A DNA stretch of 64,000 bases. It comes from Rhizobium leguminosarum (GTDB lineage: Bacteria > Pseudomonadota > Alphaproteobacteria > Rhizobiales > Rhizobiaceae). Below the pieces are notes generated by a model. That model did no database searches, was not told where the DNA came from, and worked only from the letters and a program-made list of their open reading frames with translations. Where the stretch lies: contig NZ_CP016286.1 in the NCBI RefSeq assembly GCF_001679785.1, positions 4,908,501 to 4,972,500 on the forward strand, given 5' to 3'. Positions 14,380 through 36,308 of the stretch are shown piece by piece. The translations under genes were made by a program, and so were the position numbers. The first letter of the stretch is position 1; every line of letters begins with the position of its first letter.

Positions 14380-15246
14380 TCATTCTTCGAACCAAGCTTG
14401 GAAAGGCCGCCTCTCAAATTCGTCCAGTGCTCCGCCGGGTGTGGAATTGACGACGCGGATACCATTCGCTTTGGCGATATTTGAGATGGCTCGATACTGC
14501 CGCCACAGCCGCGCCAGCTGCTGAAACTCGTCGTGGCGGGTCCTTGTCAGGGTGCCGTCCGCATTTACGGTGAAATCTTTTCCCTTTTGCACCTTGAGGT
14601 CGAAGGCGTATCCGTAGTTCGATGTCAGGAAACGATCGTGGTCGACGCCGAGCAGGATGATCTCTTTGAAACCAAGATACATCGCTATCATCAAGGCCAT
14701 CACCGGCACCGACTCTACACGAGGGACCGGTCGAGAGATATCGACGACTTCCTCTGATGTTCTTTCGTCGAAGCTTTCACCGAGCACAAGATACCGAACC
14801 GTTCGCCCTGAAAACAAATTGTGTTTTCGAACCAGTTCCGCTTCAGTGGAACTGAGAAACAGTTCCGCGGCGCCCAGGTGTGAATGCATCTCGTTAAACC
14901 AGTCGATCACGTCCTCCGACGTCATCGTTACGTAGGTAATTTGCGGAACACAATGATAACGAGACTGGAACTTGCCGAAATCGGAGTGCAGGTAGCCATT
15001 GGAAACAGTTATAACGGTTTCACCTTGAAGTCGCGACAGATCCAAGCCCTTGACGCTCGGGCCGTTTCCTAAAATAAAACAGCGGCCGCCCTCGTGCTGA
15101 CCAGCAAGTTGTCTATTTTCTGCCAGTGATCTCGCGACATCAGCAGAGAATTTGTGGCGAGTACTTAGCCTGCGCCTCAACTCATGCACACCATAGGGGA
15201 GCAGCATGGAGCCAAAGGTCAAAATTTTTCTCAAAGCTGCAGCCAC
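14380..15246 (-). CDS. DUF115 / MptE-like protein (possible sugar-transfer enzyme)
   Basis: A 288-residue protein with the diagnostic loop GRCFILGNGPSVKGLDLSRL (residues about 54-73), shared by DUF115/MptE-like enzymes; a similar GNGPS loop occurs in family 42 sialyltransferases. A later ILLGVDHDRF segment also fits DUF115. The GTG start at 15246 has GAGGT six bases before it, inside the end of the PIG-L gene. DUF115 domains are often encoded beside NeuB-type genes, for example in flagellin modification loci. A transferase for the CMP-activated sugar made by this module is therefore plausible but unproven. Confidence 0.75.
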   Translation of the reverse strand: MAAALRKILTFGSMLLPYGVHELRRRLSTRHKFSADVARSLAENRQLAGQHEGGRCFILGNGPSVKGLDLSRLQGETVITVSNGYLHSDFGKFQSRYHCVPQITYVTMTSEDVIDWFNEMHSHLGAAELFLSSTEAELVRKHNLFSGRTVRYLVLGESFDERTSEEVVDISRPVPRVESVPVMALMIAMYLGFKEIILLGVDHDRFLTSNYGYAFDLKVQKGKDFTVNADGTLTRTRHDEFQQLARLWRQYRAISNIAKANGIRVVNSTPGGALDEFERRPFQAWFEE

Positions 15247-15863
15247 TTTACGACCTCAAAAACCTCCGCGTATTTTACACCGATGCGCTGGCCGGCGTTC
15301 TCCGCTTCATTTCGGAAGAAGCTCACCCATTTCCGCCCCGTACGCTCCATCTCGGATTCATGGGCAAGGATCGCCTTTTCCTTCTGGTCCCAATGGGAGG
15401 TGATGTCGACGTAGAAATTCCCCCTGAAATCCACCGTCGAATGGTACCAGTTGCTGCGGTACATCAGCAGACGAGGCACATGGCGGCAGCTGTGCAGCGA
15501 TGCGCGCGACAAGGCCAGATGGTCATGGTGGATGTCTCCGACCCAGTGGGTGTAGACCATATCGATCTTCAGATCCTGCACGAGCTTGAGGATCTCGATA
15601 TTCAGCGGGTCGACGAATTCGATCTGAAGCGTTTTGAACTCGCCGCAAAACATCTTGTGAACGCCGAGAATGTCCATCGCAGCATCCGCTTCCGCCCTGG
15701 CGACCTGGCTGCTGCGGACGGACTGGTCATATTGGTTGGAAAAGCCGGATACGGTGGCGACATAGACGTAAACCGTGTCTCCGTTTGCCGCATGGCGCGC
15801 CAATGCACCGCCACAGCCTAGTTCCACGTCGTCAAAATGGGCACCGATCGCGAGAATATTCAT
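15231..15863 (-). CDS. PIG-L / LmbE-family deacetylase
   Basis: A 210-residue protein with the family zinc motif near its N-terminus (AIGAHFDDVELGCGG, residues 5-19) and the second ligand block GDIHHDHLALSRA (about residue 110). Such enzymes remove N-acetyl groups from GlcNAc-type sugars or related amides. The ATG at 15863 overlaps the WbqC stop (ATGA). In this operon it could deacetylate a diacetamido sugar or the finished nonulosonate so that another N-acyl group can be put on. The substrate is inference. Confidence 0.88.
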   Translation of the reverse strand: MNILAIGAHFDDVELGCGGALARHAANGDTVYVYVATVSGFSNQYDQSVRSSQVARAEADAAMDILGVHKMFCGEFKTLQIEFVDPLNIEILKLVQDLKIDMVYTHWVGDIHHDHLALSRASLHSCRHVPRLLMYRSNWYHSTVDFRGNFYVDITSHWDQKEKAILAHESEMERTGRKWVSFFRNEAENAGQRIGVKYAEVFEVVKWLQL

Positions 15864-16561
15864 TTGCAACTCCAGAGCAGGTCACGCGTGCCTGCAATAC
15901 CACAATTCAATAGTGTGTCGAGAATGCTGAGATAGGGAATGAACTCGCCGAATGGCTGTGGGTAAACCGGGTGGACGAAATGCTGCCATTCGATTTCGAT
16001 CCCGGCTGCCTCAAACACTTCCGGCCGCATATAGTCGCGCGCGCCGAGACCCGAGAGATAACGTGTGGCTCCCACTTTACGCAGCAGTTCGACAAGCAAT
16101 TCGTTCCTATGACCCTCGGGGCTTAGAGTGCTTGATCGTACCATCGGCATGGTGACTTCAAGCATATCCAGGATCCCTTCGAGGAAATGCATGTTGAAAT
16201 CGGCCAGCAGCTCGAATCGCCTGCCATAGAGGACCTCTATACGGGGAAAGACCTCACTCCAACCGTCAGATCTGCGATAGTTTTCCCGAAGCAGGGAAAG
16301 GTTTTGGTCTATCCATCCTGTGCCGGGTGCCAGTTCCACCGCATTGATCGGTGTACCGAAGCTTGGCTTTCTAATTCCGACGGTGAGCCAGCGGTCGCCT
16401 TGTGCCGTCTTTATCTTGTCACGATGCGTCCAGCTTTTGCTCGTGCCATGGACGAACTGAACATGATCCAGAACGATGTAGAGGTCGGCGTTCAGAAAAC
16501 GCTGAAAAAAGCCGAGATAGGATGCAAAGTCCGGCTGATGGATCACCGCTGTCATAGTCAT
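15860..16561 (-). CDS. WbqC-like family protein
   Basis: A 233-residue protein. It opens with the WbqC signature HQPDFASYLGFFQRFLNADLYIVLDHVQF-like block (residues 7-35) and has RYLSGLGARDYM and PQPFGEFIPYLSILD toward the C-terminus, both family hallmarks. WbqC proteins occur in polysaccharide and sugar-modification loci, but their reaction is not established. Here the gene is locked into an operon by four-base overlaps with the SpsG-like gene upstream and the PIG-L gene downstream. An N-acyl or amide chemistry partner of the deacetylase is one hypothesis. Confidence 0.85.
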   Translation of the reverse strand: MTMTAVIHQPDFASYLGFFQRFLNADLYIVLDHVQFVHGTSKSWTHRDKIKTAQGDRWLTVGIRKPSFGTPINAVELAPGTGWIDQNLSLLRENYRRSDGWSEVFPRIEVLYGRRFELLADFNMHFLEGILDMLEVTMPMVRSSTLSPEGHRNELLVELLRKVGATRYLSGLGARDYMRPEVFEAAGIEIEWQHFVHPVYPQPFGEFIPYLSILDTLLNCGIAGTRDLLWSCK

Positions 16562-17523
16562 GCAGCCAATCTTTCCAGCAGATCGGCAACGCGGCCGACT
16601 CCGCCAAGGTCGACCTTGGCCATGGCAGTCTCGCTCATGCTCTTGATGGGAATCGCCTTTTCCAGGATGCCGAGATCGAATGCCGAGTGATGCCCGGCGA
16701 AGAACGCTGCTCCAAGCTCTTCGAGCGCACGCCCGACCGGGATTTCAAAAGGTTCGTTGGCGATCACCACGCACGGCAAACCGGCCGCACAGGCTTCGAA
16801 TGGGGTGACACCGCCGCCGGTAATCGCCAGATCGTGTCCATGCATCTCTGCCGCAAGCGACGGCACCTGGTTGAGCAGTTTGAACTGACCCGGTGCGGCG
16901 GTCGCGACGACCCCTTCAAGCTCCGCCATGTGCTGGAAGCTCGGGCCCGTGACGATGGTGACGGGAAAAGATTTGCTGGTCAGCCATTTGGCGACGCGGA
17001 CGGTCACGCCGTAGGTATCGGCGCCTCCAAGCGTGACGAGTATCGATGCAAGACTTTGCCGAATCCTGCGATACGCCGCGATTTCAGGATTGAGTATCAT
17101 GTACTCCACTCCCAGCCGAACATCCTTGCCCTTCAGATCCTCCGTCTTTTCGAAAAGGAGAGCGCAGATGTTCATGTCGGCGAGTTCCGCGCCATCGCCG
17201 CGATCATCGAAAGTAACGAGCTTGGCGCCCAAACGCTTGATCGTTTCGCTGTGAGATCGCCGCGTATTGAGGCGGTCATTGATCCAGATCGGTGACAGAA
17301 CGCCGACGTCGACGAAACCATCCTCCCATCCCGTGACGGCGGCGAGATCGTAAAGCGCAACGTCGAAGCCGCGCTCTTGGATGATTCGCAACGAATTCGG
17401 ATGATCATTCGCCAGGAAACGGATTGAATGACCGCGCGAACGCAGTTCGGTGGCGAGCGTCAACGACCGAAACAGATGCCCCATGCCGCGTGCATGCGAA
17501 CTCTCTATGCAGAAGACGAACAT
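16558..17523 (-). CDS. SpsG/PseG-like UDP-sugar hydrolase or glycosyltransferase
   Basis: A 321-residue protein with a GT-B fold arrangement. The N-terminal HARGMGHLFRSLTLA (residues 10-24) matches the GxGHxxR loop of PseG, and the C-terminal ITGGGVTPFEACAAGLPCVVIA block is the family-28-type donor site. PseG releases UDP from UDP-2,4-diacetamido-2,4,6-trideoxy-altrose to give the hexose used by the NeuB-type synthase; Bacillus SpsG is a relative. The frame extends upstream, but the ATG at 17523 gives the family start and overlaps the SpsF-like gene by 19 bases. Position next to spsE/spsF-like genes supports the same pathway step. Confidence 0.85.
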   Translation of the reverse strand: MFVFCIESSHARGMGHLFRSLTLATELRSRGHSIRFLANDHPNSLRIIQERGFDVALYDLAAVTGWEDGFVDVGVLSPIWINDRLNTRRSHSETIKRLGAKLVTFDDRGDGAELADMNICALLFEKTEDLKGKDVRLGVEYMILNPEIAAYRRIRQSLASILVTLGGADTYGVTVRVAKWLTSKSFPVTIVTGPSFQHMAELEGVVATAAPGQFKLLNQVPSLAAEMHGHDLAITGGGVTPFEACAAGLPCVVIANEPFEIPVGRALEELGAAFFAGHHSAFDLGILEKAIPIKSMSETAMAKVDLGGVGRVADLLERLAA

Positions 17524-18182
17524 AGCTTGATCGCTTCTTCTGTTCCGAGCCAGTTCCCACCTCCGCGCGCTGCCAGAGCGCAAGCCCGTCTCCAGTCTTC
17601 TTCTGTATCTACCGTCAGGCGCAGTTCGGGGGATATTTTAGCCGGCGGCACGTCGAGCTGGCCGATCTTGAACAGTTCCGGCCGATCGGTGAAGTATTCA
17701 TTCACGTGCTCTCGATGGTGTGGCAGCTTTCCCTCGCGATGACTGCGCGCCAAAGCTTCGAACGTAAATATCTCGGCGCCAACGCCAATCGGTAACTGAC
17801 CGAACGCATGCGTGTAGTCGAATCCTTGCTTTTGGTGCAGATCGATTAGCCTCTCAAGCTCCTCGATGTCAGTGAAGGGATTATCCGCGGTCAATCGAAC
17901 AATGTCGGACATTCCGAGCGATTTCGCGCATTGAAAATAACGATCGAGAACATCGGCTTCGTCGCCACGAAAACAGCTTACACCATGCTCAAGGCACCAG
18001 GCTTCGATCATATCGTTCTCGCCGGCCGATGAGGTCGCAACGACAACCTTAGCAGGCCGCGTCAACATCTGAAGCCTACCCAGAACATGTCCGAGAAGCG
18101 GCTTGCCGGAAATGTCGCGAAGCACCTTTCCCGGCAATCGGGTGGATCCCATCCGCGCCTGGATAATGATTCCAAGCGTCAC
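17505..18182 (-). CDS. SpsF-like cytidylyltransferase (CMP-sugar synthetase type)
   Basis: A 225-residue protein with the nucleotidyltransferase loop IIQARMGSTRLPGKVL (residues 6-21), VRLTADNPF as metal-binding block and a C-terminal LRLTVDTEED. These define the SpsF / COG1861 family, related to CMP-KDO and CMP-sialate synthetases. The GTG at 18182 is chosen because it forms a GTGA overlap with the synthase stop and has GGAG nine bases before it. It probably activates the keto-acid sugar made by the NeuB-like enzyme as a CMP-sugar. Confidence 0.88.
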   Translation of the reverse strand: MTLGIIIQARMGSTRLPGKVLRDISGKPLLGHVLGRLQMLTRPAKVVVATSSAGENDMIEAWCLEHGVSCFRGDEADVLDRYFQCAKSLGMSDIVRLTADNPFTDIEELERLIDLHQKQGFDYTHAFGQLPIGVGAEIFTFEALARSHREGKLPHHREHVNEYFTDRPELFKIGQLDVPPAKISPELRLTVDTEEDWRRACALAARGGGNWLGTEEAIKLCSSSA

Positions 18183-19195
18183 GCCAGATCGCTCCACTGG
18201 AGAACGGCGTCCACATCAAGATCCTTTACGAGCCGTCGCCCTGCAAGAGTTTCGAGATGCTTCGGTTCAATCCCTGTCCCAGGTCGTTTGACCGAGATAT
18301 CGCCGGCAGAGATGACATGGCCGGCTTTGAGCGGTCGATTGACGACAATACTCTTGCGGTTGTTCAATCTTGTCGTCGCCTCACTGGCTGCCGGTTCCTT
18401 GCGACCACTGCCTTTCATCACCTCGAAAGCACGTATCGCATCCACGAGCCATTTCATTTCCCCCGGATCGGCCGAGAGCATGTGGTCGGGACCGTCGGCG
18501 GCTTTGTCGTAGGTGAAATGCCGCTCTATAACCCGTGCGCCCATCGCGGCGGCACAAAGGCTTGCGACCGGGGTCAGCGTATGGTCGGAATAGCCAACGT
18601 CGAGATCCGGAAACGCCTCCATCATCGTTTGCATGGCGCGCAGGTTCACATTTTCCGGATGCGTCGGGTAGCTTGTGATGGCGTGCAGCAGAATGAGCTT
18701 CTGATTGCCTGCCTCCTTGATTGCGGCAACGGATTCCCGAACTTCGTCGAGCGTCGACATCCCGGTCGACAGGATTATGGGCTTGCCCGTTTTTGCCAGA
18801 TAGCGGAGGAAGGGGATGTTGACTGCATCGTCCGAGCCCACCTTGTGGGCACCAACCCCGCAATTCTCCAGCAGATCGACATCCGTTTCGTGTGAGGGCG
18901 ACGAAAACCAGTCCAGCCCATGCTCCTCGGCATAGCGGAAAACCGCTTCGTGAAGCTCCTGACCGACTTCATATTTACGGAAAAGCTCGAATTGCGAGGT
19001 AACGCCGGTGTTTTCCATATCGAACATGGCGTTGCGGCTCGACAGAGTCTCTGCGCGATAAGTCTGGAGCTTGACAGCATCCACGTCGGACGCCTTGGCC
19101 TCGTCGATCAGCCGTCTTGCCTGATCAAAAGTCGTAAAATTCCCGCCGATTTCGGCGATAATATAACACCGGTCGGGTCGGTAGTTCCGGAACAT
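18179..19195 (-). CDS. NeuB/SpsE-family N-acylneuraminate (nonulosonate) synthase
   Basis: A 338-residue protein of the normal NeuB length. The TIM-barrel part has IAEIGGNF, AVKLQTYRAETL, WFSSPSHETDVD, ILSTGMSTLDEV and DHTLTP; the last 60 residues form an SAF/antifreeze-like domain (VVNRPLKAGHVISAGDI ... LAGRRL). Such enzymes condense phosphoenolpyruvate with a six-carbon sugar to give sialic, legionaminic or pseudaminic acid. The ATG at 19195 has GGAG six bases upstream. It is linked to SpsF- and SpsG-like genes in the same order as Bacillus spsEFG. Which isomer is made cannot be decided from the sequence. Confidence 0.92.
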   Translation of the reverse strand: MFRNYRPDRCYIIAEIGGNFTTFDQARRLIDEAKASDVDAVKLQTYRAETLSSRNAMFDMENTGVTSQFELFRKYEVGQELHEAVFRYAEEHGLDWFSSPSHETDVDLLENCGVGAHKVGSDDAVNIPFLRYLAKTGKPIILSTGMSTLDEVRESVAAIKEAGNQKLILLHAITSYPTHPENVNLRAMQTMMEAFPDLDVGYSDHTLTPVASLCAAAMGARVIERHFTYDKAADGPDHMLSADPGEMKWLVDAIRAFEVMKGSGRKEPAASEATTRLNNRKSIVVNRPLKAGHVISAGDISVKRPGTGIEPKHLETLAGRRLVKDLDVDAVLQWSDLA

Positions 19196-19307
19196 CTGCT
19201 ACTCCTGCAATTCACTATACGGCCGGCGTTCCAATAGCGGTAGCCAGCTCAGTCCAGCTCTGTGCAATGTCATCCCGCACACGACCGATATGCACCCGGC
19301 TGCTGCT

Positions 19308-20378
19308 CTATTTTCCGATTTCCTGGGCCCGATCCACGTAATTTCGGACGATCACTTTCCTGCCGCAGATTTCGGTCGGCTCATCATCCGTCAGGCGAGG
19401 CAGATAGCATCGGCGGCATACTTCGCTTTTCAAGAAGCCCTGCGGTTCTTTGTGCAAGGCGCGGACTGCATTCATTTTTTCGCCGTGCCAAATCTGGTGT
19501 ACCGTCTCCGTCGTCGCGTCACCAATGACTTCGCGATTTTCCTCGTCGTTCGAGCACTTCATCACAAGTCCGTCGGCGCCGATAACGAGGCGCTGGTATT
19601 GCTGCGGGCAGGTGAAGTTATCCAGATATTGAACGTCAGAATCGTTGCCGAGATAGTCGATCAGCGGATTGAAGGCGACCAGATCCACGTGAGGTGCAAA
19701 CGTCTCATAGTAAAGATCCGGATTTTCCCTGATCGCCGGCCAGATGCCTTGCACCTTGATGACCGGACGGTGGAGACCACGCTCATCTTTGTACTTCTTG
19801 ATGTCCTTGATCTTATCGAGTAGCGCCTCGAACTTGATCGGCTTGCGTATCTTCTCGTAGGTCTCACCGGTGCCATCGATCGAAACGGTGATCCAGTCGA
19901 TGCCGGCATCGACGAGCTGAGCGAAATAGTCTCTGTTGAGCTTGAAGCCGTGCGTGAGGGTCGAGACTTCCTTGATCCCATGGTCCTTGGCATAGCGCAC
20001 GCAGTCGGCGAAGCGCTTGTGCAGCGTGGCTTCGCCCCGCAGCGACAGACGGATCGCAGGAACCTTGCCGCCGATCTCATCGATGATACGGCAGTAGAGA
20101 TCCCAGTCCATCCGCGTCGTGTTCACACTTTTCTTGAACTCGTCGCTGATCGTATAACACATCGGGCAGCGCAGATTGCAGATCGATGCCAGCTCGAGAT
20201 CGACGAGCAGTGGATAGTCCGAAACCTGCTGGTTCAGGGCATATTCTGACCATTTGCGACGGTAATCCGCGTATTCTGCTTCCCAGCCTTCGCCCCGGAA
20301 CTTGTCGAACGCGGCTTCGCGCTCGACTGTGTCCATCGAGTAATTGCCCTTATTGATCGGAACGTAACGCTCGTTCAA
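19308..20378 (-). CDS. Radical SAM/SPASM-domain protein
   Basis: A 356-residue protein with the radical SAM cluster CNLRCPMC (C67, C71, C74), a GEATLHKRF-type motif, SIDGTGETYEKIR, and a C-terminal SPASM-like cysteine set (MKCSNDEEN, then CRRCYLPR and a final Cys) for one or more auxiliary FeS clusters. The TTG start at 20378 is well supported: AAGGAG lies seven bases before it, inside the last codons of the epimerase gene, whose TAA ends one base upstream. It sits between the SDR and NeuB-like genes, so a radical step on a nucleotide sugar or peptide is likely. Substrate unknown. Confidence 0.9.
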   Translation of the reverse strand: MNERYVPINKGNYSMDTVEREAAFDKFRGEGWEAEYADYRRKWSEYALNQQVSDYPLLVDLELASICNLRCPMCYTISDEFKKSVNTTRMDWDLYCRIIDEIGGKVPAIRLSLRGEATLHKRFADCVRYAKDHGIKEVSTLTHGFKLNRDYFAQLVDAGIDWITVSIDGTGETYEKIRKPIKFEALLDKIKDIKKYKDERGLHRPVIKVQGIWPAIRENPDLYYETFAPHVDLVAFNPLIDYLGNDSDVQYLDNFTCPQQYQRLVIGADGLVMKCSNDEENREVIGDATTETVHQIWHGEKMNAVRALHKEPQGFLKSEVCRRCYLPRLTDDEPTEICGRKVIVRNYVDRAQEIGK

Positions 20379-20379
20379 T

Positions 20380-21225
20380 TTACGACTCCTTCATCATCGC
20401 GCGCATCCCGGCCGGCAGATCCCATTCCGGCCGCCATCCGAGAACGGCGCGAGCCCGCGAGATATCGGCCCGCACGTCAGGTATTTCATTCCGCCGAACT
20501 GTGCAAGATGACACTACAGGTAGATCAGTGCCGGCAGCTTCCTGCAAGATGTCGATTATTTCCTGCACCGAATACGACATTCCGGAGCCGATATTGATGC
20601 AATGGTAGCCTTCCACGACGTCCATGGCCTTGGCAAAGGCGCTCAGGACATCTTCAACGAAGATATAGTCACGCCGGGGACTGAGATCCAGGACCTGTAT
20701 TTCCTGCTTCGCCCGTATCCGGTTCACAAGCGTCGGTATCAGAAATTCGGGTCGCTGCCCTGCGCCATATATATTGAAAAGACGCAGTGCAACCACCGGT
20801 ATCTGCTCGTGCGTGGCGGCGAACTCACAAAGCTGTTCGGCAAGATGTTTGGAGAGAGCGTAAGGGTTGTTCGGCCTGACCGGATCGCTTTCATGGATCG
20901 GCAGCCGCTCGGGCACCCCGTAGATATAGGCGCTTGCGAACACGAGTTTGGCCTTGTGTCGCTTGCACCAGCTCAAAGCGTGTTGCGTTCCGAGAACGTT
21001 GGCGGCCATGAAGCTCGGGCCTTGGCTCCAGCTATCCGGGACGAATGTCCTGCCGGCAAGGTGAAACAGCGTGCGCGCCGCCGGAAGCTCCTGCCAAACC
21101 TGCTCTTCGCTTATATCTCCATGTGTTCGGTCAAGCGCAAGCACGTCAAAACCGGCCTCCTTGAGCCGTCTGACCAGACGGCTCCCGAGAAAACCGCCAG
21201 CACCGGTGACGATGGCATCAACCAT
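20380..21225 (-). CDS. NAD-dependent epimerase/dehydratase (extended SDR)
   Basis: A 281-residue protein with the nucleotide-binding motif TGAGGFLGSRL (residues 7-17), a modified active-site strand FASAYIYG and YALSK (the catalytic YxxxK). LRLFNIYGAGQRPEFLIP and YIFVEDV follow, as in extended SDR sugar enzymes. Its N-terminus overlaps the nucleotidyltransferase gene by eight bases. The missing second Ser/Thr in the active-site strand (SAYIYG rather than SSxxYG) suggests a reductase or epimerase rather than a 4,6-dehydratase. Substrate is probably the nucleotide sugar made by its neighbours. Confidence 0.85.
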   Translation of the reverse strand: MVDAIVTGAGGFLGSRLVRRLKEAGFDVLALDRTHGDISEEQVWQELPAARTLFHLAGRTFVPDSWSQGPSFMAANVLGTQHALSWCKRHKAKLVFASAYIYGVPERLPIHESDPVRPNNPYALSKHLAEQLCEFAATHEQIPVVALRLFNIYGAGQRPEFLIPTLVNRIRAKQEIQVLDLSPRRDYIFVEDVLSAFAKAMDVVEGYHCINIGSGMSYSVQEIIDILQEAAGTDLPVVSSCTVRRNEIPDVRADISRARAVLGWRPEWDLPAGMRAMMKES

Positions 21226-21931
21226 TCAAGAACCTGGACCGCATGGATTCGAACTGCTCGATCGCCAAGGCATAATCGTCAGGCCGTCCGATATCGAGCC
21301 AATAGCCTGCAAAATCTCGAACCGTGGCCGGCTTGCCGGCCGCAAGAAGATCAAGCATCAACTGATCAAAGCCGTAGGCACCACCTTGTGGTATGTGCTC
21401 GACGGCCCTCGAAGACACCATGTAGACGCCCATGCTGACTTTGTATTCGGCCGTCGGTTTCTCTCGAAAACCGGTCAGCAGCCCGGCCTCGCCGGTGTCA
21501 AGAACGCCATAGTCTATGCGATGCTGACGCGTCTTGGACGAGATCGTGAATATATTCCCGTCGCGGACGTGAGCATCATGAAAATCGGCATAGTTGAGAT
21601 CCGTCAGAATGTCGCCGTTCATCACCAGGAAATTCTCCGGCAGATCCTTTATCAGCCGCAGCGGCCCCATGGTGCCAAGAGGTTCGTCCTCGAGCGAATA
21701 GTCGATGCGTACACCCCACTTGTCGCCATCCTGGAAGAAAGCCTTGATCAGCTCGGCCTGGTGGTTGACGGCAAGTGTTATATGCTGAAATCCGCCTGAT
21801 ATCAGCTGACGAATGATCACCTCAAGAATAGGATAGTCGCCGATCGGCATCAGAGGCTTTGGAAGCACGACAGTATAGGGCCGCAACCGCGTCCCCATTC
21901 CGCCTGCCAGAATGACTGCGCGCCTAGACAT
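21218..21931 (-). CDS. Sugar-1-phosphate nucleotidyltransferase (PtmE/RmlA-like)
   Basis: A 237-residue single-domain enzyme with the signature AVILAGGMGTRLRPYT (residues 5-20), PKPLMPIGDYPILE, and the metal site VMNGDILTD. Length and motifs match glucose-/mannose-1-phosphate nucleotidyltransferases and the catalytic part of PtmE, the GlcN-1-phosphate guanylyltransferase that opens the legionaminic acid route in Campylobacter. It has no CBS domains. It overlaps the LegB-like gene by eight bases. The base and sugar used are not decided by sequence alone. Confidence 0.88.
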   Translation of the reverse strand: MSRRAVILAGGMGTRLRPYTVVLPKPLMPIGDYPILEVIIRQLISGGFQHITLAVNHQAELIKAFFQDGDKWGVRIDYSLEDEPLGTMGPLRLIKDLPENFLVMNGDILTDLNYADFHDAHVRDGNIFTISSKTRQHRIDYGVLDTGEAGLLTGFREKPTAEYKVSMGVYMVSSRAVEHIPQGGAYGFDQLMLDLLAAGKPATVRDFAGYWLDIGRPDDYALAIEQFESMRSRFLNG

Positions 21932-22904
21932 TGAAGATATCCGCCTTGTATCTCGCCAGATTCTGCGGCTGACGCAGCCAGTCGATCGTCGCTTTCAGAC
22001 CATCTTCCAAGCTGTAACGCGGCGAAAATCCTGTCAGAGACCTGATCAGGCTGTTGTCGCAGCACAGACGTTCCACTTCGCTGTTTGCCGGACGCAAACG
22101 CTGTTCATCGCATTCGATCTCGACGCTGACGCCGATGATATCAGCGATCAGCCGAACGGTATCGCCGATCGATATCTCGCTGCCGGAGCCGATATTGACC
22201 GTCTGTCCGATGGCTTCGTCGCAGGCAGCGAGCGCCAGAAAGCCGTCGCATGTATCCTGCACGAAATTGAAATCCCGGGTGGGCGAGAGCGCACCAAGCT
22301 TCAGCGTCGTCCGTCCACTCAGAAGCTGTGAAATCACAGTCGGAATAACCGCCCTTGCAGATTGTCGTGGGCCGAAAGTGTTGAAAGGCCGTGCGATCGT
22401 CACCGGTAGGTCAAAACTCGAATGATAACTGTATGCCATCGCGTCAGCAGCGATTTTTGACGCCGAATAGGGCGACTGTGCCTGCAGCGGATGACTTTCG
22501 CTGATTGGGACAAAGCGAGCCGTTCCGTAGACCTCGCTGGTCGAGGTCTGGATGACACGGCCAACGCCGGCATCGAGAGCGCCCTGAAGGACATTCAACG
22601 TGCCATTAATGTTGGTGTCCACATAGCTGGACGGCGCCTGATAGGAATAGGGAATAGCGATGAGCGCGGCCAGATGAAATATCGTGTCAACGCCTTTAGC
22701 GACGGCACGCATTTGTGCTGGGTCGCGAACGTCTCCAAGAATGACCTCGAACTTGCCGCGGTATTCAGACTGGTCCAGCCAGCCCCAGCTGGAAAACGAG
22801 TTGTACTGGCAAAGGGCGCGGGCTTCGACGCCTGCCTTTATCAGGGTTTCAACGAGGTGAGAGCCGATGAAGCCGTCCGCTCCGGTCACAAGTACTTTCT
22901 TCAT
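21924..22904 (-). CDS. NAD-dependent sugar 4,6-dehydratase, LegB-like SDR
   Basis: A 326-residue extended SDR with VTGADGFIGSHLVE (residues 6-19), the dehydratase-type active site TSTSEVYGTA and YSASK (YxxxK). RPFNTFGPRQSARAVIPTVI and DFNFVQDT follow; these blocks resemble the LegB group of 4,6-dehydratases acting on GDP- or UDP-GlcNAc. It overlaps the ATP-binding gene of the exporter by four bases (22901-22904). Together with the nucleotidyltransferase, a DegT aminotransferase and the SpsG/NeuB/SpsF genes, it would provide the 4-keto-6-deoxy intermediate of a nonulosonate. UDP-glucuronate or GDP-mannose dehydratase activity is a weaker alternative. Confidence 0.85.
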   Translation of the reverse strand: MKKVLVTGADGFIGSHLVETLIKAGVEARALCQYNSFSSWGWLDQSEYRGKFEVILGDVRDPAQMRAVAKGVDTIFHLAALIAIPYSYQAPSSYVDTNINGTLNVLQGALDAGVGRVIQTSTSEVYGTARFVPISESHPLQAQSPYSASKIAADAMAYSYHSSFDLPVTIARPFNTFGPRQSARAVIPTVISQLLSGRTTLKLGALSPTRDFNFVQDTCDGFLALAACDEAIGQTVNIGSGSEISIGDTVRLIADIIGVSVEIECDEQRLRPANSEVERLCCDNSLIRSLTGFSPRYSLEDGLKATIDWLRQPQNLARYKADIFNV

Positions 22905-24220
22905 TTCAATAGGCCCTCAGAATCGCGGCGGTAGAGCATCTTTACATCCCAAGGCAGTTGGATCGCCGAAATTGATGGTTTTCGTTGCTGGCCCAGCATC
23001 TGGATGATCCCGACATTGTCTTCGACTTCGAATCGTATGCCTTCAACCACCGAATAGATCGAAAAACGGCTGGAAATGCCCGCGCGGAGATAAAAGGTTC
23101 CGGTGTTCAACAAGCCGGCCGGAATGACGACTTGCGCCCGATAATAACCTGGAGGTCTGGCGTCGAGGCGGCTTACATCGAGTTCCGGATCAGATAGGCT
23201 GATGACGGAGGAGTAGCCATCCTCCATCATGACCTGCAGTCCGACTGACAGTCCCGTTAACGGCTCCCGCAGCTCATACTCAACCTCGATGATGAAGTTC
23301 TTTGTAAGCTCAACGGTTTGAGCGATCTCGCCGTCTTCATTTTTGATGGAAAGGCGACATATTACGGCCTTGCCGTCGATATCCTGGGGAGCCGCTTCAA
23401 AATGCATCTTCCCATTAAGCTCGGGTCGGTCGAAGTAAGCGCGTATGACATCTGAGGTGCTGCCAATGGCAGCCACCTGTCCGTCGGACAGCAGAATGGA
23501 CTGGGGGCAAAGACTGCTCACCGCCGTCATATTATGACTGACGAACATGATTGTCCGACCCGCCTTGGTCACCTCCTGCATTCGGCCCATGCATTTGTTC
23601 TGGAAGTTGACATCACCAACTGCAAGAACCTCATCGACAAGAAGTATTTCAGGGTCGAGATGTGCCGCAACGGAAAAGGCAAGCCGGACATACATGCCCG
23701 AAGAGTACCGTTTGACTGGGGTATCGATGAACTCACCGATTTCTGCGAACTCAACGATTTCATCGAATTTCCTGCGGACCTCGGCATGCGTCATTCCGAG
23801 AATGGCGCCGTTCAGGTAAACATTTTCACGCCCCGTGAGCTCGGGGTGGAACCCGGTTCCAACTTCCAGCAGGCTCGCAATCCGGCCTCGAATGCCAATG
23901 TAGCCCGAGGTCGGGCGCGTTATGCGAGACATCAGCTTCAGAAGGGTCGATTTTCCTGCACCATTGCGGCCGATGACGCCAACGATATCGCCGCGGGAAA
24001 TCTCGAAAGAGACGTCGTCGAGGGCATGGAAAATATCGTTGTTGAGGCGAGCCTTGTTCTTTCGGTCGGATGCGTAATCCGACATGGAGACATTTGGGTC
24101 AGGCAGGTTACGGCGCCGCGCCCACCAGCTTTGAAGGTCGCGATATAAGGTACCGTGATTGATGATTCCCAGCCGATAATGCTTGCTTACATTCTCGGCG
24201 CGTACAACGATTTCATTCAT
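22901..24220 (-). CDS. wzt: O-polysaccharide ABC transporter ATP-binding protein
   Basis: A 439-residue ATPase with Walker A GRNGAGKST (residues 84-92), signature RYSSGMYVRLAFS (about 171-183) and Walker B ILLVDE (192-197). It has a C-terminal extension of about 180 residues with a beta-sandwich look (VGLQVMMEDGYSSVI ... GTFYLRAGIS). That extension is the Wzt-C carbohydrate-binding domain, which reads the chain terminus before export. The ATG at 24220 overlaps the Wzm TGA by one base; a longer frame upstream is only the permease in another frame. Confidence 0.93.
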   Translation of the reverse strand: MNEIVVRAENVSKHYRLGIINHGTLYRDLQSWWARRRNLPDPNVSMSDYASDRKNKARLNNDIFHALDDVSFEISRGDIVGVIGRNGAGKSTLLKLMSRITRPTSGYIGIRGRIASLLEVGTGFHPELTGRENVYLNGAILGMTHAEVRRKFDEIVEFAEIGEFIDTPVKRYSSGMYVRLAFSVAAHLDPEILLVDEVLAVGDVNFQNKCMGRMQEVTKAGRTIMFVSHNMTAVSSLCPQSILLSDGQVAAIGSTSDVIRAYFDRPELNGKMHFEAAPQDIDGKAVICRLSIKNEDGEIAQTVELTKNFIIEVEYELREPLTGLSVGLQVMMEDGYSSVISLSDPELDVSRLDARPPGYYRAQVVIPAGLLNTGTFYLRAGISSRFSIYSVVEGIRFEVEDNVGIIQMLGQQRKPSISAIQLPWDVKMLYRRDSEGLLK

Positions 24221-25179
24221 CAGACCGTATCCATAGCGGTTGCCTCGGCCCGTGCGAAAAGTATCAAACCGCCAATCATAATCACCAGGGTGGCGGTCAC
24301 ATTCGCCAGGCAAACGCTAAGTGGGAGCGGCGACGCGTCGTACAATGCCCAGCGAAATAGCTGAACCGGTGTCGTCATCGGATTCAGATGATAAAACCAT
24401 TGATATCGTTCCGGAATTTGGCTGTAGGAGTAGACGACGGGTGTCGCATACATCCAAAGTTGAGCCACGAAACCGACGGCGTAAACCAGATCGCGATATC
24501 GGACTGTCAGCGCGGAAACCGCGAGCCCCGCGCCCACACCAAGCGTCGCAACATAGAGCAAAATCAGCGGTGTCGCCAAAACGAAACGCAAGTTGATCAC
24601 TATTCCATCCTGGCTAAGCCAGAGGACAAAAGAGATTGTAAGCAGAAGCGTGAATTGGATGGCAAATGCGACCAGGCCGCTCATCGCGACTGCGAGTGGT
24701 ACGACTAGCCGGGGGAAATACACTTTTCCAAACAAGTTCGAGTTTTTCGAAAATGTTTCTGAGTTATTGGTGAGGCAAGCTGAGAAATAATTCCAGATAA
24801 TGGTGCCGGACATATAAAAAACAAGCGGGGAAATTCCATCGGTGGAGAGATTGGCAATCTTTCCGAAGACGATGTAATAGGTGATCGTCGTCAGTGTCGG
24901 TTGTATGAGATACCAAACCGGTCCAAGCACGGTTTGTTTGTAGAAAGTCGTGAAATCCCTTTTAAAGAACATCCAGATAAGTTCACGATATTTCCACGCA
25001 GCCGTCAGCCCGACGCCTGTCTTGCCGGACGGCCTGATGATTATATCCCAGGATTCGGTTCCGATCTCGCTTTCCCGCTTCGTCAGGTGACCTGTCATAT
25101 CAGTATGCTCAAACTCTCCGTTAGCGGTCAGCCGCGCCATATCTTCTAAGGCCTGAGGGGGTTGCGTGGAGCAACCCAT
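24220..25179 (-). CDS. wzm: O-polysaccharide ABC transporter permease
   Basis: A 319-residue integral membrane protein of the ABC-2 type, with about 40 soluble N-terminal residues, then WKYRELIWMFFKRDFTTFYKQTVLGPVWYLIQP, a classic Wzm/TagG amphipathic entry block. Six membrane segments follow, and a FVAQLWMYATPVVYS-type motif near the C-terminus. It pairs with the overlapping wzt gene to move the undecaprenyl-linked chain across the inner membrane. A second ATG at 25140 could be the true start; neither has a strong ribosome site. Confidence 0.92.
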   Translation of the reverse strand: MGCSTQPPQALEDMARLTANGEFEHTDMTGHLTKRESEIGTESWDIIIRPSGKTGVGLTAAWKYRELIWMFFKRDFTTFYKQTVLGPVWYLIQPTLTTITYYIVFGKIANLSTDGISPLVFYMSGTIIWNYFSACLTNNSETFSKNSNLFGKVYFPRLVVPLAVAMSGLVAFAIQFTLLLTISFVLWLSQDGIVINLRFVLATPLILLYVATLGVGAGLAVSALTVRYRDLVYAVGFVAQLWMYATPVVYSYSQIPERYQWFYHLNPMTTPVQLFRWALYDASPLPLSVCLANVTATLVIMIGGLILFARAEATAMDTV

Positions 25180-25182
25180 GTA

Positions 25183-26394
25183 TCACGCGACTTTAGCGAG
25201 GACACGCCCCAAAATGTCTTTTAGACGGTGGTCGAAATCCTCTTGCTTCCACAAGGAAGCTCTTTCAAGTCCCTTTTTGATCAAAACGGAAGATAGGGCT
25301 TCGTCTTCCCACAGGCGGCTCATCGCTCTTTGTATTTCCTCAACGGATTGGGGCGAGAAATAAAGCGCTGCGTCACCGCACTGTTCACGCATTCCATACT
25401 TGTCTGAGATCAAGACGGGACAGCCACAGACCATCGCTTCAAGAGGCGGGATGTTTGTCGGGCCGAAAAAAGTCGGCATGACCAACCCTCTGGCACGACG
25501 ATAAAACCCAGCCAGATCCGAATCCGGCACATAACCGACGAAGTGAACAGCTTGGGATAGCCCAAGCTCGCTTGCCATCGCTTTGACGGCCGCATATTCG
25601 CGCTGTGTGTTGCCCGCCAAGACCAGTTCCATGTCCAAATGAGTCGCGCGCGCGGCTGCCAGCGCTTCTATAAGCCGCAAGTGATTCTTGTGAGGCCAGA
25701 ATTGCGCCGGATAAAAATAGAATTTTTCCGGAAGTCGGTATCGTTCGGCGAAGGCGGGCGTCTCAACCGAATCCGTAAGATAGTTCGGAGCGATATAAGG
25801 CAGCGGATACATGTGATCTTCTGGCGTGCCGTAGCTTTCCATGACATGCCGCCGCCCGGTTTCGGAATCGACGAGCACGGCAGCACTCTGGTTCGCAAGG
25901 TGACGAAACCGGCTTTCTCTCAGCTGAAAGCGCAACCAGCTTCCGGCTTCCGGGAAGCTGCGTTCGTATCTGTGCATCAAATCGTGAATGGTTGCGATCG
26001 AGGGCTCCTTGATCTGCCAGGTCAGGGCGTCTTGAGCCGGGAAAATCCACAGATCACATTGGAGAGATGCCAACTCCTGCACAAGCGGGTTCACCCATCT
26101 CGCGACGACACGCGCTACGGAGCCGGGCAGAGCCATGAACAGCTTGGCAAGTGTCTCGCCCCGCTTCCAGTGCTGCAGCGGCACGGCCTTCAGCGGGCTG
26201 GCATCAAGTTCAGAGCGCCAGGCTTCGTCCCCATAGGCAACGATGACCTCCACGTCCGTGCCGTTGATTGAAGACAGGGCCTGCACGAGGCTTTGCGCGT
26301 ACTGGAACATACCACCAGCATGGCGGCCTACTCCGAGATAGAAACCAATCCTCTTCCGACGCAAGGTAATTCGGCTGTCCAAATGTATCGCCAA
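25183..26394 (-). CDS. Family 4 glycosyltransferase (GT-B)
   Basis: A 403-residue enzyme with a Rossmann-like N-terminal half and a GT4 C-terminal donor domain: FYFYPAQFWPHKNHLRLIEAL (about residue 230), VHFVGYVPDSDL, and GPTNIPPLEAMVCGCPVLIS, the EX7E-type block. The only start before the conserved IGFYLGVGRHAGG is a TTG at 26394, three bases after the stop of the methyltransferase gene. It shares long stretches with the GT4 gene at 29672-30868, so the two are paralogues. Probably acts on the cytoplasmic face. Confidence 0.87.
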   Translation of the reverse strand: MAIHLDSRITLRRKRIGFYLGVGRHAGGMFQYAQSLVQALSSINGTDVEVIVAYGDEAWRSELDASPLKAVPLQHWKRGETLAKLFMALPGSVARVVARWVNPLVQELASLQCDLWIFPAQDALTWQIKEPSIATIHDLMHRYERSFPEAGSWLRFQLRESRFRHLANQSAAVLVDSETGRRHVMESYGTPEDHMYPLPYIAPNYLTDSVETPAFAERYRLPEKFYFYPAQFWPHKNHLRLIEALAAARATHLDMELVLAGNTQREYAAVKAMASELGLSQAVHFVGYVPDSDLAGFYRRARGLVMPTFFGPTNIPPLEAMVCGCPVLISDKYGMREQCGDAALYFSPQSVEEIQRAMSRLWEDEALSSVLIKKGLERASLWKQEDFDHRLKDILGRVLAKVA

Positions 26395-26397
26395 CAG

Positions 26398-27168
26398 TCA
26401 GCCCGCGTTCTTGCGCGCTACGACACAGACGCCCCAGGTTTCGGTCCCCGGAGTCGAACCGGACATCCACTCTTCGGCAATCACACGGCTCATCCCCGCA
26501 TTCGTCAGGAGGCGGTCTATCTCGTTCAGGAAGAGGTAGCGCATGCGGTGGGTTTCGCAAACCATTTCGGTCTTGGCGCTCAGCTTCTCCGTCGCGAAGA
26601 TCGTGTAATTGACATCCACGACGTTCTCGGCGTCATGAACGACCGACTCTCCGACGCGAACGACGGAAATCTCATCGTTTTCCAAGCGTTTGACGCGGGT
26701 ACTCGGCCGCTGCCAAAGGACTGCTGGTCCGTACCAGAAGTCGAATATGAAAATTCCGCCATCTTCGAGATGATGGGAAATAGTCTCCATCATCGCTTCG
26801 AGATCGGCATCGGACGTCTGATAGCTCAGAACATGAAAAAGGGAGATGACCGCCTGGAATCGCCGATCCGTCCGGAATGTGCGTGCATCGCCCAGCGTGA
26901 AATCAAGTTTGCCGCCCGACTGTGCCGCCTTCGGCATGGCCGCCGCAAGCATGGTTTCCGACAGCTCTACCCCCAGCACCCCATATCCGGCTTCTGCGAT
27001 CTTCTCGGCGTGAATGCCGGTGCCGGAGCCTAGCTCCAGAATCTGCGAGATTGGGCCGGTGGCATAACGCTCCAGCAGAGCTTTCACATAAGCTGTTTCG
27101 CCCTCGTAATCCTTGTCCTTATAGAGAAGGTCGTAATACTGGGAGTACAATCCGAAACTGGTCGTCAA
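26398..27168 (-). CDS. Class I SAM-dependent methyltransferase
   Basis: A 256-residue protein with motif I ILELGSGTGIHAEKIA (residues about 43-58), acidic motif II in LGVELSE, and a motif IV region (LFHVLSYQTSDADLEAMM) followed by FIFDFWYG. This is typical of methyltransferase domain 25-type enzymes in O-antigen and sugar pathways. The ATG at 27168 overlaps the DegT aminotransferase stop by four bases. It could N-methylate the amino sugar made by that enzyme, or O-methylate the chain; I cannot distinguish these. Confidence 0.87.
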   Translation of the reverse strand: MTTSFGLYSQYYDLLYKDKDYEGETAYVKALLERYATGPISQILELGSGTGIHAEKIAEAGYGVLGVELSETMLAAAMPKAAQSGGKLDFTLGDARTFRTDRRFQAVISLFHVLSYQTSDADLEAMMETISHHLEDGGIFIFDFWYGPAVLWQRPSTRVKRLENDEISVVRVGESVVHDAENVVDVNYTIFATEKLSAKTEMVCETHRMRYLFLNEIDRLLTNAGMSRVIAEEWMSGSTPGTETWGVCVVARKNAG

Positions 27169-28274
27169 CGGATGACCTCCGCTACGATACCCGCGACTTC
27201 GCGAATTTGATCTTCCCTCAGCGCCATGCCGCTTGGAATATAGAAGCCGCGGCGCGCAAGCTTTGCGGCGACGGGAAGATCTGCATCCTTGAAGAAGCCC
27301 ATCTTCTGCAGAACGGGCTGCTCGTGCATCGGCCAGAAAAACGGACGGCAGCCTACGCCTTTAGCCGCCAATCGTTTCATCGCTTCGGCTGCGTCGAAAT
27401 CGATCTCGTCCTTCAGCACGATGCCATAGACCCAATAGATATTCCGGGCATAGCTTGCCTCAGGCAACGGCAGTTGAATGCCGGGCAGATCCTGAAGCAG
27501 CTCGGTATACAGTCTGCCCATCGCACGTTTGCGCTCGACGAATTCCGGAAGGCGCTCAAGCTGCGCGCAACCCAGAGCCGCCTGCATATTCGTCATACGC
27601 ATATTCCAGCCGAGTTCCTCGTGAACGAAGCGGCGGGCAGGCAGGAAGCAGAGATTTCGCAGGCTCCGGGATCTGTCGGCGAGGGCGTCGGAATCGGTGA
27701 CGATCATGCCACCTTCGCCTGTGGTAATGTGCTTATTGGGATAGAAGCTGAAAATGCTGACATCGCCGAAACTGCCGCAAGGCTGGCCGTTATATGTCTG
27801 GCCATGCATTTCTGCAGCGTCTTCGATGATCTTGAGGTTGTGGCGGCGGGCGATCTCGTTGATCGCGGCCATATCGCAGGGCAGGCCATAGATATGCACC
27901 ACCATGATGGCGCCCGTCTTCGGCGTAATAGCTGCTTCGATCTTCGTCGGATCGATATTCCAGGTTAGAGGATCCGAGTCCACCGCAACCGGCACACAAC
28001 CAGCTCTCACGATGGCTGCGGCGCAGGAAATGATCGTGAATGACGGCATGATGACCTCAGTGCCTTCCTCCAGGCCAAGTGCCATCATGCCAGCGTCGAG
28101 AGCCATCGAACCGTTCGCAACGGCGATTGCGTGCTTGCGCCCGACAGTCGCGGCAAACTCACGCTCAAAACGTGTGATGAAGGGGCCTTCGGAGGAAATC
28201 CAGCCGGTCTCGATACATTCCAGCAGATACTTGCTCTCGTTACCATTCAGCAGCGGTTCATTAACCGGAATCAT
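27165..28274 (-). CDS. DegT/DnrJ/EryC1 sugar aminotransferase (perosamine-synthase-like)
   Basis: A 369-residue PLP enzyme. It begins MIPVNEPLLNGNE ... GWISSEG, the opening of GDP-perosamine synthases, and has EDAAEMHG (Asp152, PLP ring contact) and FSFYPNKHITTGEGGM with the Schiff-base Lys181. A C-terminal GVGCRPFFWPMHEQP block also fits Per/RfbE. The expected reaction transfers amino from glutamate to C4 of a 4-keto-6-deoxy nucleotide sugar. GDP-4-keto-6-deoxymannose from Gmd, encoded in the same locus, would give GDP-perosamine. The LegB-type intermediate is an alternative substrate. Four-base overlaps tie it to the methyltransferase and cupin genes. Confidence 0.9.
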   Translation of the reverse strand: MIPVNEPLLNGNESKYLLECIETGWISSEGPFITRFEREFAATVGRKHAIAVANGSMALDAGMMALGLEEGTEVIMPSFTIISCAAAIVRAGCVPVAVDSDPLTWNIDPTKIEAAITPKTGAIMVVHIYGLPCDMAAINEIARRHNLKIIEDAAEMHGQTYNGQPCGSFGDVSIFSFYPNKHITTGEGGMIVTDSDALADRSRSLRNLCFLPARRFVHEELGWNMRMTNMQAALGCAQLERLPEFVERKRAMGRLYTELLQDLPGIQLPLPEASYARNIYWVYGIVLKDEIDFDAAEAMKRLAAKGVGCRPFFWPMHEQPVLQKMGFFKDADLPVAAKLARRGFYIPSGMALREDQIREVAGIVAEVIR

Positions 28275-28705
28275 TCGGCACCCTTTATCTTCAGTTCCCG
28301 CACTGACGGTACAAATCGCGTCTTGTCGGATTCCCCGGCGTAAGGCCCCTGCTTGACTTCGATGATTTCAGCTTCTTCGATAATTTCAAAACCATGTCCG
28401 CCGAAGGCGAGCAGTATGACGTCGCCTGCGCGCAGGATCGCGCTTTCGTAGTATTCCTGCGCGTCGGAATAGAAGTCCACGCGGACAACGCCCGACTTTA
28501 TAAGCAGGACTTCCTTCGTATAGAGGACCTCGCGCGCAACGGCATTGTGAACGTGGGGTTGGATGACATAGCCAGTCGGTCGCTTCATATAGGCAAGTTG
28601 CTGCGAAAATTCGTCCGGCGTGAAAAATTGGATACCATCGAACGTGTAGTTCGACCGCAATATCATGGCCTGCAGTTCGCCACCGTTCGTGATCTTTTCT
28701 ATCAT
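28271..28705 (-). CDS. Cupin-fold protein of the polysaccharide locus
   Basis: A 144-residue protein with a double-stranded beta-helix pattern. PHVHNAVAREVLYTKEVLLIKSG carries the His-x-His and Glu-like ligands of cupin motif 1, and ILRAGDVILLAFGGHGFEI is motif 2 with its conserved GD and G-H. The ATG at 28705 has GGGAAAGAG just upstream, which decides against a TTG at 28720. Its stop overlaps the aminotransferase start. Small cupins beside sugar aminotransferases can be keto-isomerases (FdtA type) or epimerases (RmlC type); motif detail does not allow a firm choice. Confidence 0.8.
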   Translation of the reverse strand: MIEKITNGGELQAMILRSNYTFDGIQFFTPDEFSQQLAYMKRPTGYVIQPHVHNAVAREVLYTKEVLLIKSGVVRVDFYSDAQEYYESAILRAGDVILLAFGGHGFEIIEEAEIIEVKQGPYAGESDKTRFVPSVRELKIKGAE

Positions 28706-28733
28706 GTTTCTCTTTCCCAAATCGACCGATGCG

Positions 28734-29669: not shown

Positions 29670-29671
29670 GA

Positions 29672-36234: not shown

Positions 36235-36308
36235 TGGCTGGGGAACCTGGATTCGAACCAAGATTAACGGAGTCAGAGTCCGTCGTTCTACCATTGAACT
36301 ATTCCCCA
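36235..36308 (-). tRNA. tRNA-Gln (anticodon CUG)
   Basis: The minus strand folds as a cloverleaf. The acceptor stem TGGGGAA pairs with TTCCCCA; the anticodon arm ACGGA-CTCTGAC-TCCGT has CTG at positions 34-36, which reads CAG (Gln). The T-arm contains GGTTCGAATCC, and an encoded CCA ends at 36235. It marks the right edge of the polysaccharide locus and is a possible integration site, though I saw no duplicated tRNA end in the window. Confidence 0.95.

Follow-up and report, generated by a model that had tools for sequence, protein, structure and literature searches.

In Rhizobium leguminosarum, a block of ten genes at 14380-22904, all on the minus strand, very probably encodes the synthesis of a C9 acid activated with cytidine monophosphate (CMP). 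Positions refer to the window, the whole 64,000-nucleotide stretch analysed (NZ_CP016286.1, positions 4,908,501 to 4,972,500). Nonulosonic acids, which include sialic acid, shape the encounters of bacteria with hosts, phages and plants; their routes are usually predicted from Neu, Leg and Pse gene sets, and such rules would misread this block. We regard it as evenly poised whether the block encodes a complete pathway of its own to a CMP-activated nonulosonic acid and has spread horizontally, and we give the same even weight to the idea that it branches off the legionaminic route after LegB. The product probably has no amino group at C7. A further-reaching reading, which we consider unlikely on the whole, is a mobile nonulosonate route without a dedicated transaminase or hydrolysing 2-epimerase, in which a radical S-adenosylmethionine (SAM) enzyme alters the sugar and a PIG-L deacetylase followed by a WbqC protein swaps the N-acetyl group for an amino acid, possibly cysteine. 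The result would be an aminoacylated or even thiol-bearing surface cap, and, more broadly, the WbqC family (PF08889) would consist of ligases that attach amino acids to bacterial amino sugars. If true, radical SAM chemistry would be part of a new nonulosonate route that needs no transaminase, the WbqC family would gain a proposed function backed by structure, and a specific prediction about how the O-chains of rhizobia end could be put to assay.

The block recurs as a unit. Using the radical SAM protein as anchor, we scanned a genome collection with one genome per species (84,980 species) and obtained 35 loci, of which 28, at 61-100% anchor identity, carry the module; the remaining seven (L060-L066, 22-29% identity, without the module) are excluded from all counts. 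The 28 loci and the window make up 29 copies, in which a gene was counted as present at a score of at least 60 bits. Two more copies lie on plasmids of Rhizobium (2.1 Mb) and Neorhizobium galegae (1.6 Mb), and counts out of 31 include these. LegB, a short-chain dehydrogenase/reductase (SDR), the radical SAM protein, NeuB and SpsF are present in 29/29 copies, a nucleotidyltransferase, SpsG and WbqC in 28 each, PIG-L in 27, and the GT42-like transferase that ends the block in 21. All nine core genes occur together in 26 copies (25 of the 28 loci beyond the window): L046 stops in SpsF because its contig ends there, L054 has no room for the nucleotidyltransferase, and PIG-L was not found in L058 within the sequence stretch examined. 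Gene order is constant across the 29 copies, with insertions in a few (L047, L048, L057). A search for the same gene order, proposed in an earlier sequence-only reading of this DNA, thus returned 28 further loci, though with the radical SAM protein as anchor, and the partners that this reading had called non-standard belong to one block conserved in the same order. This recurrence rules out chance clustering and mis-called open reading frames. Pairwise distances of seven module proteins track those of the radical SAM protein (r 0.88-0.97; transferase 0.785; WbqC was left out of this correlation), as expected if the block moves as one.

The block is rare: close matches were found in 3 of 199 genomes of the family, 1 of 385 of the class and 3 of 398 of the phylum, the window genome (8.57 Mb) being counted each time, and in one of the three phylum matches (G723) the gene stands in another context. 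The closest named relatives at the locus are Rhizobium, and Rhizobium sp. R634 (L040) matches the module and most flanking genes. Carriers not labelled as metagenome-assembled genomes are Rhizobium, two Rhizobiales isolates, Herbaspirillum, Pseudothauera, Propionivibrio and Neorhizobium; the labels of the metagenome-assembled carriers (Chlorobiaceae, Nitrospira, Nitrospina, Bacteroidetes and others) may be binning errors.

In the window, all ten open reading frames lie in the order LegB, nucleotidyltransferase, SDR, radical SAM protein, NeuB, SpsF, SpsG, WbqC, PIG-L and transferase, and the description of them as mostly overlapping by 1-19 bases holds. Overlaps are 4 bases between the upstream exporter gene wzt and LegB, 8 for LegB/nucleotidyltransferase, 8 for nucleotidyltransferase/SDR, 19 for NeuB/SpsF, 4 for SpsG/WbqC, 10 for WbqC/PIG-L and 16 for PIG-L/transferase. 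SpsF and SpsG overlap by 79 bases as called and by 19 with an internal ATG of SpsG at 17523, its likely start. A single base separates the SDR and radical SAM genes, and the one true gap, 112 bases, precedes NeuB. Pfam cut-offs are exceeded for NeuB, SAF, CTP_transf_3, WbqC, PIG-L, Radical_SAM and SPASM, while SpsG has no Pfam match; one NeuB gene and one WbqC gene were found in the window genome.

A CMP-activated C9-type acid had already been inferred from the sequence alone, and NeuB, SpsF and the PseG-like hydrolase support it, with the CstII-like transferase described below as a new point. SpsG (16558..17583) scores 112.5 bits against TIGR03590, under the cut-off of 153.55, and has the motif G[ML]GHxxR in 28/28 copies; it would hydrolyse the nucleoside diphosphate (NDP) bond, the cleavage half of the job of LegG/NeuC. 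The NeuB/SpsE-type C9-ulosonate synthase with its SAF domain (18179..19195; PF03102 272.6 bits, PF08666 43.9 bits) would condense the free sugar with phosphoenolpyruvate to a 5-acetamido-3,5,9-trideoxy nonulosonate, and SpsF, a CMP transferase of the CTP_transf_3 family (17505..18197; PF02348 112.4 bits), would form the CMP-sugar. NeuB falls under both the NeuB and the PseI equivalog cut-offs (273.2 bits against PseI, cut-off 340.25), and the nearest NeuB outside the module, among the 398 phylum genomes, is 42% identical. Module NeuBs have F20, S101 and H102 in 29/29 copies, where comparison NeuBs have H in 32/33, F in 29/33 and D in 29/33, and one to four of the 33 also depart at these positions; S101 aligns with Phe112 of the meningococcal enzyme. 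L94, S155 and A172 differ from the comparison NeuBs as well. The comparison set consists of the best-scoring loci plus L173-L175, and thus of the nearest NeuBs and not a fair sample; at least five of the source loci carry LegC. These fixed substitutions suggest that the module NeuB may have an unusual substrate.

We consider an N-acyl exchange by PIG-L and WbqC to be a balanced possibility. The PIG-L/LmbE deacetylase (15231..15869; PF02585 68.1 bits) has BshB1 as its best NCBIfam model (82.0 bits, under the cut-off of 182.5) and retains GAHFDD in 27/27 copies. WbqC (15860..16561) belongs to a family described as functionally uncharacterised in PMC5532660. Its predicted model fits BshC over 220 of 233 residues, a comparison in which BshC leads the next row by 5.6 Z units, and places it in the BshC fold. 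The arrangement recalls the bacillithiol and mycothiol pairs (BshB/BshC, MshB/MshC), in which a PIG-L deacetylase likewise adjoins a protein of ligase-like fold; it differs in that the module scaffold would be a nonulosonate-type sugar, WbqC has 233 residues compared with 540, and PIG-L is below the BshB cut-offs. Following what BshB and BshC are thought to do in bacillithiol, PIG-L would strip the 5-N-acetyl group and WbqC, as a proposed N-acyl or amino-acid ligase, would couple the exposed amine to an amino acid or a different acyl group. PMC9037385 reports a 7-(3-hydroxybutyramido) acid in the K-antigen of S. fredii, an example of the unusual N-acyl nonulosonates that rhizobia can carry. 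The earlier suggestion of an unusual N-acyl group or a radical-generated change is consistent with this pair and with the BtrN-like features given below.

Several results count against WbqC as a ligase. Foldseek returned no significant match for WbqC, and hhalign of WbqC against BshC gave no signal with either of two alignment sizes (28 vs 3 and 68 vs 33 sequences) and did no better than unrelated controls, so that a sequence link between the two finds no support; the 33 BshC proteins are those with loci, other matches and one sub-cut-off fragment being excluded. A common fold shows no function, and according to a 2015 review (PMC4360819) the ligase activity of BshC itself had not been demonstrated in vitro. 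The WbqC family occupies 83 places in 79 of 299 sampled phylum genomes, and we analysed 40 of these places, chosen for spread and not at random. DegT adjoins WbqC in 15/40, compared with 47/183, which is not clearly above background and too weak as support for WbqC acting on amines. We give a lesser but real chance to WbqC being another HIGH/HUP-fold enzyme, nucleotidyltransferase-like or a coenzyme A-dependent acyltransferase, with PIG-L exposing an amine by trimming off an acyl group. The lead of BshC in the fold comparison, with nearly the full length of WbqC covered, argues for a ligase instead, as does the occurrence of PIG-L near WbqC outside the module (6/40 places).

WbqC is also found beside NeuB in L174 and L175 and within ~3 kb of it in L173, with no relative of the module radical SAM gene in the stretch examined, so it could have a role in further nonulosonate pathways. 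One protein encoded in MT838042.1, a 5.8 kb human-faeces record labelled 'Bacteriophage sp.' that may in fact be a misnamed piece of bacterial DNA, is related to WbqC (27% identical across 96% of the query).

The entry into the pathway points to the legionaminic route. LegB, an NDP-N-acetylhexosamine (NDP-HexNAc) 4,6-dehydratase and the first module gene (21924..22904), scores 514.2 bits against TIGR04180 (cut-off 475) and 66.4 bits against the PseB model (cut-off 407.75), and contains TSTSEVYG and YSA[ST]K in 29/29 copies. Legionaminic LegBs that adjoin LegC are 55-66% identical to it (L108, L112, L114, L122, L124). The sugar-1-phosphate nucleotidyltransferase (21218..21931; PF00483 131.8 bits) matches only PF00483 and PF12804 in Pfam, and its best NCBIfam model is a mannose-1-phosphate guanylyltransferase (136.4 bits, under the cut-off of 440). 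It would make NDP-HexNAc, from which LegB would form a 4-keto-6-deoxy sugar; the dehydratase class is supported, the nucleotide and sugar are presumed. The extended-type SDR (20380..21225; PF01370 162.4 bits) lacks the active-site acid of LegB and carries the pattern [AVIL]S[ATG]Y[VILM]YG in 29/29 copies. Because there is no dedicated transaminase, we propose that the SDR would reduce the 4-ketone in place of LegC, which would leave OH and not NH2 at C7 of the final acid. There is precedent for a nonulosonate without 7-N, since the introduction of PMC7371886 names a trideoxy counterpart of fusaminic acid with glycero-L-gluco configuration; the entry enzyme here is LegB, which sets the block apart from the fusaminic type with the configuration given there.

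With the legionaminic pathway (LegB, LegC, LegH, LegG/NeuC, LegI, PtmE) the block shares a LegB above the family cut-off, a nucleotidyltransferase and a NeuB. It differs in having no LegC inside it; instead of LegC and NeuC/LegG it contains the SDR, the radical SAM protein, the PseG-like hydrolase, WbqC and PIG-L. The lack of the transaminase and of the hydrolysing 2-epimerase of that route had escaped the sequence-only reading. The pseudaminic pathway (PseB, C, H, G, I, F) and the sps operon of B. subtilis share with the block the PseG-like SpsG, the SpsE-type NeuB and the SpsF-type CMP transferase; here the dehydratase is LegB and not PseB, SpsG and NeuB fall below the Pse cut-offs, and the module has no PseC. 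The DegT of the window and six DegT proteins of five other carriers are under the PseC cut-off, no genome-wide PseC search having been made. LegC (TIGR04181) was found over its cut-off in 0/17 carrier genomes searched (window genome best 332 bits vs 420), and NeuC/LegG (TIGR03568) in 0/20 carriers, with weaker matches in eight of them and no match whatever in the window genome. Positive controls passed: DegT neighbours of five control LegBs score 506-540 bits as LegC (cut-off 420), and a control protein of L114 scores 481 as NeuC/LegG. Since LegC and NeuC/LegG do not exceed their cut-offs in the carriers tested, we reject membership in a standard Leg or Pse pathway, and with it the earlier picture of such a pathway with extras.

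Some findings speak for a transaminase and an acetyltransferase nonetheless. Our chief reservation is a DegT aminotransferase outside the block in the window (27165-28274), which has LegC as its best family among NCBIfam models (334 bits vs 420) and could serve the pathway in this strain; a 54% relative of it lies near the module of L053, and weaker DegT matches occur in 17/17 carrier genomes. The window module has no LegH-type dedicated N-acetyltransferase, so the earlier statement that an N-acetyltransferase is missing stands for this module; a hexapeptide acyltransferase is in or just before the block in 11/31 copies, and L033, L038 and L039 have one ~18 kb into the locus. Such a protein could act as an N-acetyltransferase on a 4-amine, contrary to a transaminase-free route. 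On this evidence the pathway could instead be of Leg or Pse type, with a transaminase and an acetyltransferase supplied from elsewhere in the genome, for example the DegT at 27165-28274, and with the radical SAM protein, PIG-L and WbqC as mere decorators of a 5,7-diamino acid. We think this unlikely, if worth serious attention. Besides the failure of LegC and NeuC/LegG to reach their cut-offs, DegT is not found in 9/29 loci within the stretch examined, some stretches being short, and the DegT genes of three carrier genomes belong to other contexts or families: the only one of L042 lies beside FdtA, the only one of L045 is DesI-like and beside a GGDEF gene, and L059 has WecE (over cut-off) and a DesI-like DegT. 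The window DegT itself is part of a cassette of methyltransferase, DegT and small cupin (26398-28720). L040 and L053 are the only other loci with the complete cassette near the module; L051 has the methyltransferase and DegT there but no cupin. The cassette resembles a set for an N-methylated amino sugar that is distinct from the module.

A transaminase-free route agrees with the variation at a tailoring slot between the radical SAM and NeuB genes, where swappable tailoring enzymes would be placed in other bacteria. The slot is the 112-base gap at 19196..19307 and is empty in the window. Among the 31 copies, 8 have a hexapeptide acyltransferase there, 4 a 311-residue methyltransferase, L047 a remnant of that methyltransferase and L044 an Acyl_transf_3 protein; no acyltransferase, methyltransferase or Acyl_transf_3 protein is found there in 17/31, the window included. 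In L051, L053 and L055 the hexapeptide protein stands between Wzt and LegB. Such exchange of methyl- and acyl-tailoring enzymes suits a sugar that has a free hydroxyl at the position of the amine in Leg and Pse.

The radical SAM protein (19308..20378; PF04055 and PF13186) carries one auxiliary-cluster (twitch) domain. Its only invariant cysteines in 29 rows are 67, 71, 74, 257, 275, 321 and 324, and it combines a CxxxCxxC motif and one four-cysteine auxiliary site with the BtrN fold. BtrN, a twitch radical SAM protein of 270 residues compared with 356 for the module protein, is the nearest relative in the PDB by both profile and fold. BtrN is a dehydrogenase, and the module protein would modify the sugar or the acid in one more step, for which a dehydrogenation of the BtrN kind is the likeliest chemistry; we hold this oxidation to be plausible at somewhat less than even odds, and the fold neighbours ChlB, SuiB, SkfB and DesII, all within 2 Z units of BtrN, reduce its weight. 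Alternatively, the enzyme could be a C2 epimerase (gluco to manno) that together with SpsG takes the place of the hydrolysing 2-epimerase LegG/NeuC. NeoN and EpeE use an extra conserved cysteine as hydrogen donor; here the seven invariant cysteines match two cluster sites, so no spare conserved cysteine is left for this role, which weakens a cysteine-dependent radical SAM epimerase. As the nearest solved relative is also a dehydrogenase, we judge an epimerase doubtful. No paper in the open-access literature searched contained 'nonulosonic' together with 'radical SAM'.

Another radical SAM relative (57%) was found on the 7.3 kb contig of L106 (G723:C12) along with a different NeuB (36%), one DUF4910 and one GNAT protein, a 584-residue protein that matches nothing in Pfam and a protein resembling glucosamine-6-phosphate isomerase; this may represent a second type of ulosonate cluster that uses this radical SAM family. 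In L047, a second LegB-, NeuB- and SpsF-like set (12.5-16.9 kb; 25-31% identity) lies close behind the module.

That the acid is added as an O-chain cap by the GT42-like enzyme is, on balance, likely. The last gene of the block (14380..15246) had been called DUF115, a call that does not hold: PF01973, its only Pfam match, reaches 23.7 bits, under the cut-off of 34.6, and CstII fits better. A 13-row profile of the protein matches CstII chains weakly, at whole-sequence E-values of 2.1e-5 to 3.6e-5; nine of its ten PDB matches at E up to 1 are sialyltransferases, the tenth being a pterin pyrophosphokinase (E 0.69). Like CstII/GT42 sialyltransferases, from which it differs in the weakness of the match and in being absent or divergent in some copies, the protein shows a profile match over 168 residues and an NGPS motif in 11/13 rows. 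The CstII match fits the CMP-ulosonate donor that would be expected, and the enzyme would place the acid on an O-chain that Wzm/Wzt exports, where it would probably form a cap. The O-chain ABC exporter lies directly upstream on the minus strand: the ATPase Wzt (22901..24313) scores 76.7 bits for PF00005 and 27.6 bits for PF14524 (Wzt_C; cut-off 30.4), and the permease Wzm (24220..25179) 59.4 bits for NF050109, under the cut-off of 380. In 21/29 copies Wzt precedes LegB at a distance of no more than 700 bases, which makes the previously suggested export by the adjacent Wzm/Wzt plausible, not proved. Three points detract from a cap: the best-matching stretch reaches an i-Evalue of only 4.9e-4 against CstII, 8/29 copies (one on an ending contig) lack the GT42-like gene or have it below 60 bits, and Wzt was not found next door in 8/29. 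Decoration of a protein such as flagellin, which the sub-cut-off PF01973 match could suggest because PF01973-type Maf transferases glycosylate flagellins, is improbable given the position of Wzt in most copies and the predominance of sialyltransferases among the profile matches.

O-chain genes are swapped around a fixed core, as seen when 22901-30868 is compared with L032, L042, L044 and L049: these four loci have FdtA (PF05523) and DegT genes before Wzm, where the window and L040 have the methyltransferase/cupin cassette. The module lies inside a low G+C island at 12000-36308 (52-57%, compared with mostly 58-66% around it), the end of which lies near a tRNA-Gln gene (36235-36308). Within this island, the glycosyltransferase at 28734-29684 matches the GNT-I family PF03071 (29.3 bits, cut-off 25.4), a family best known from eukaryotes.

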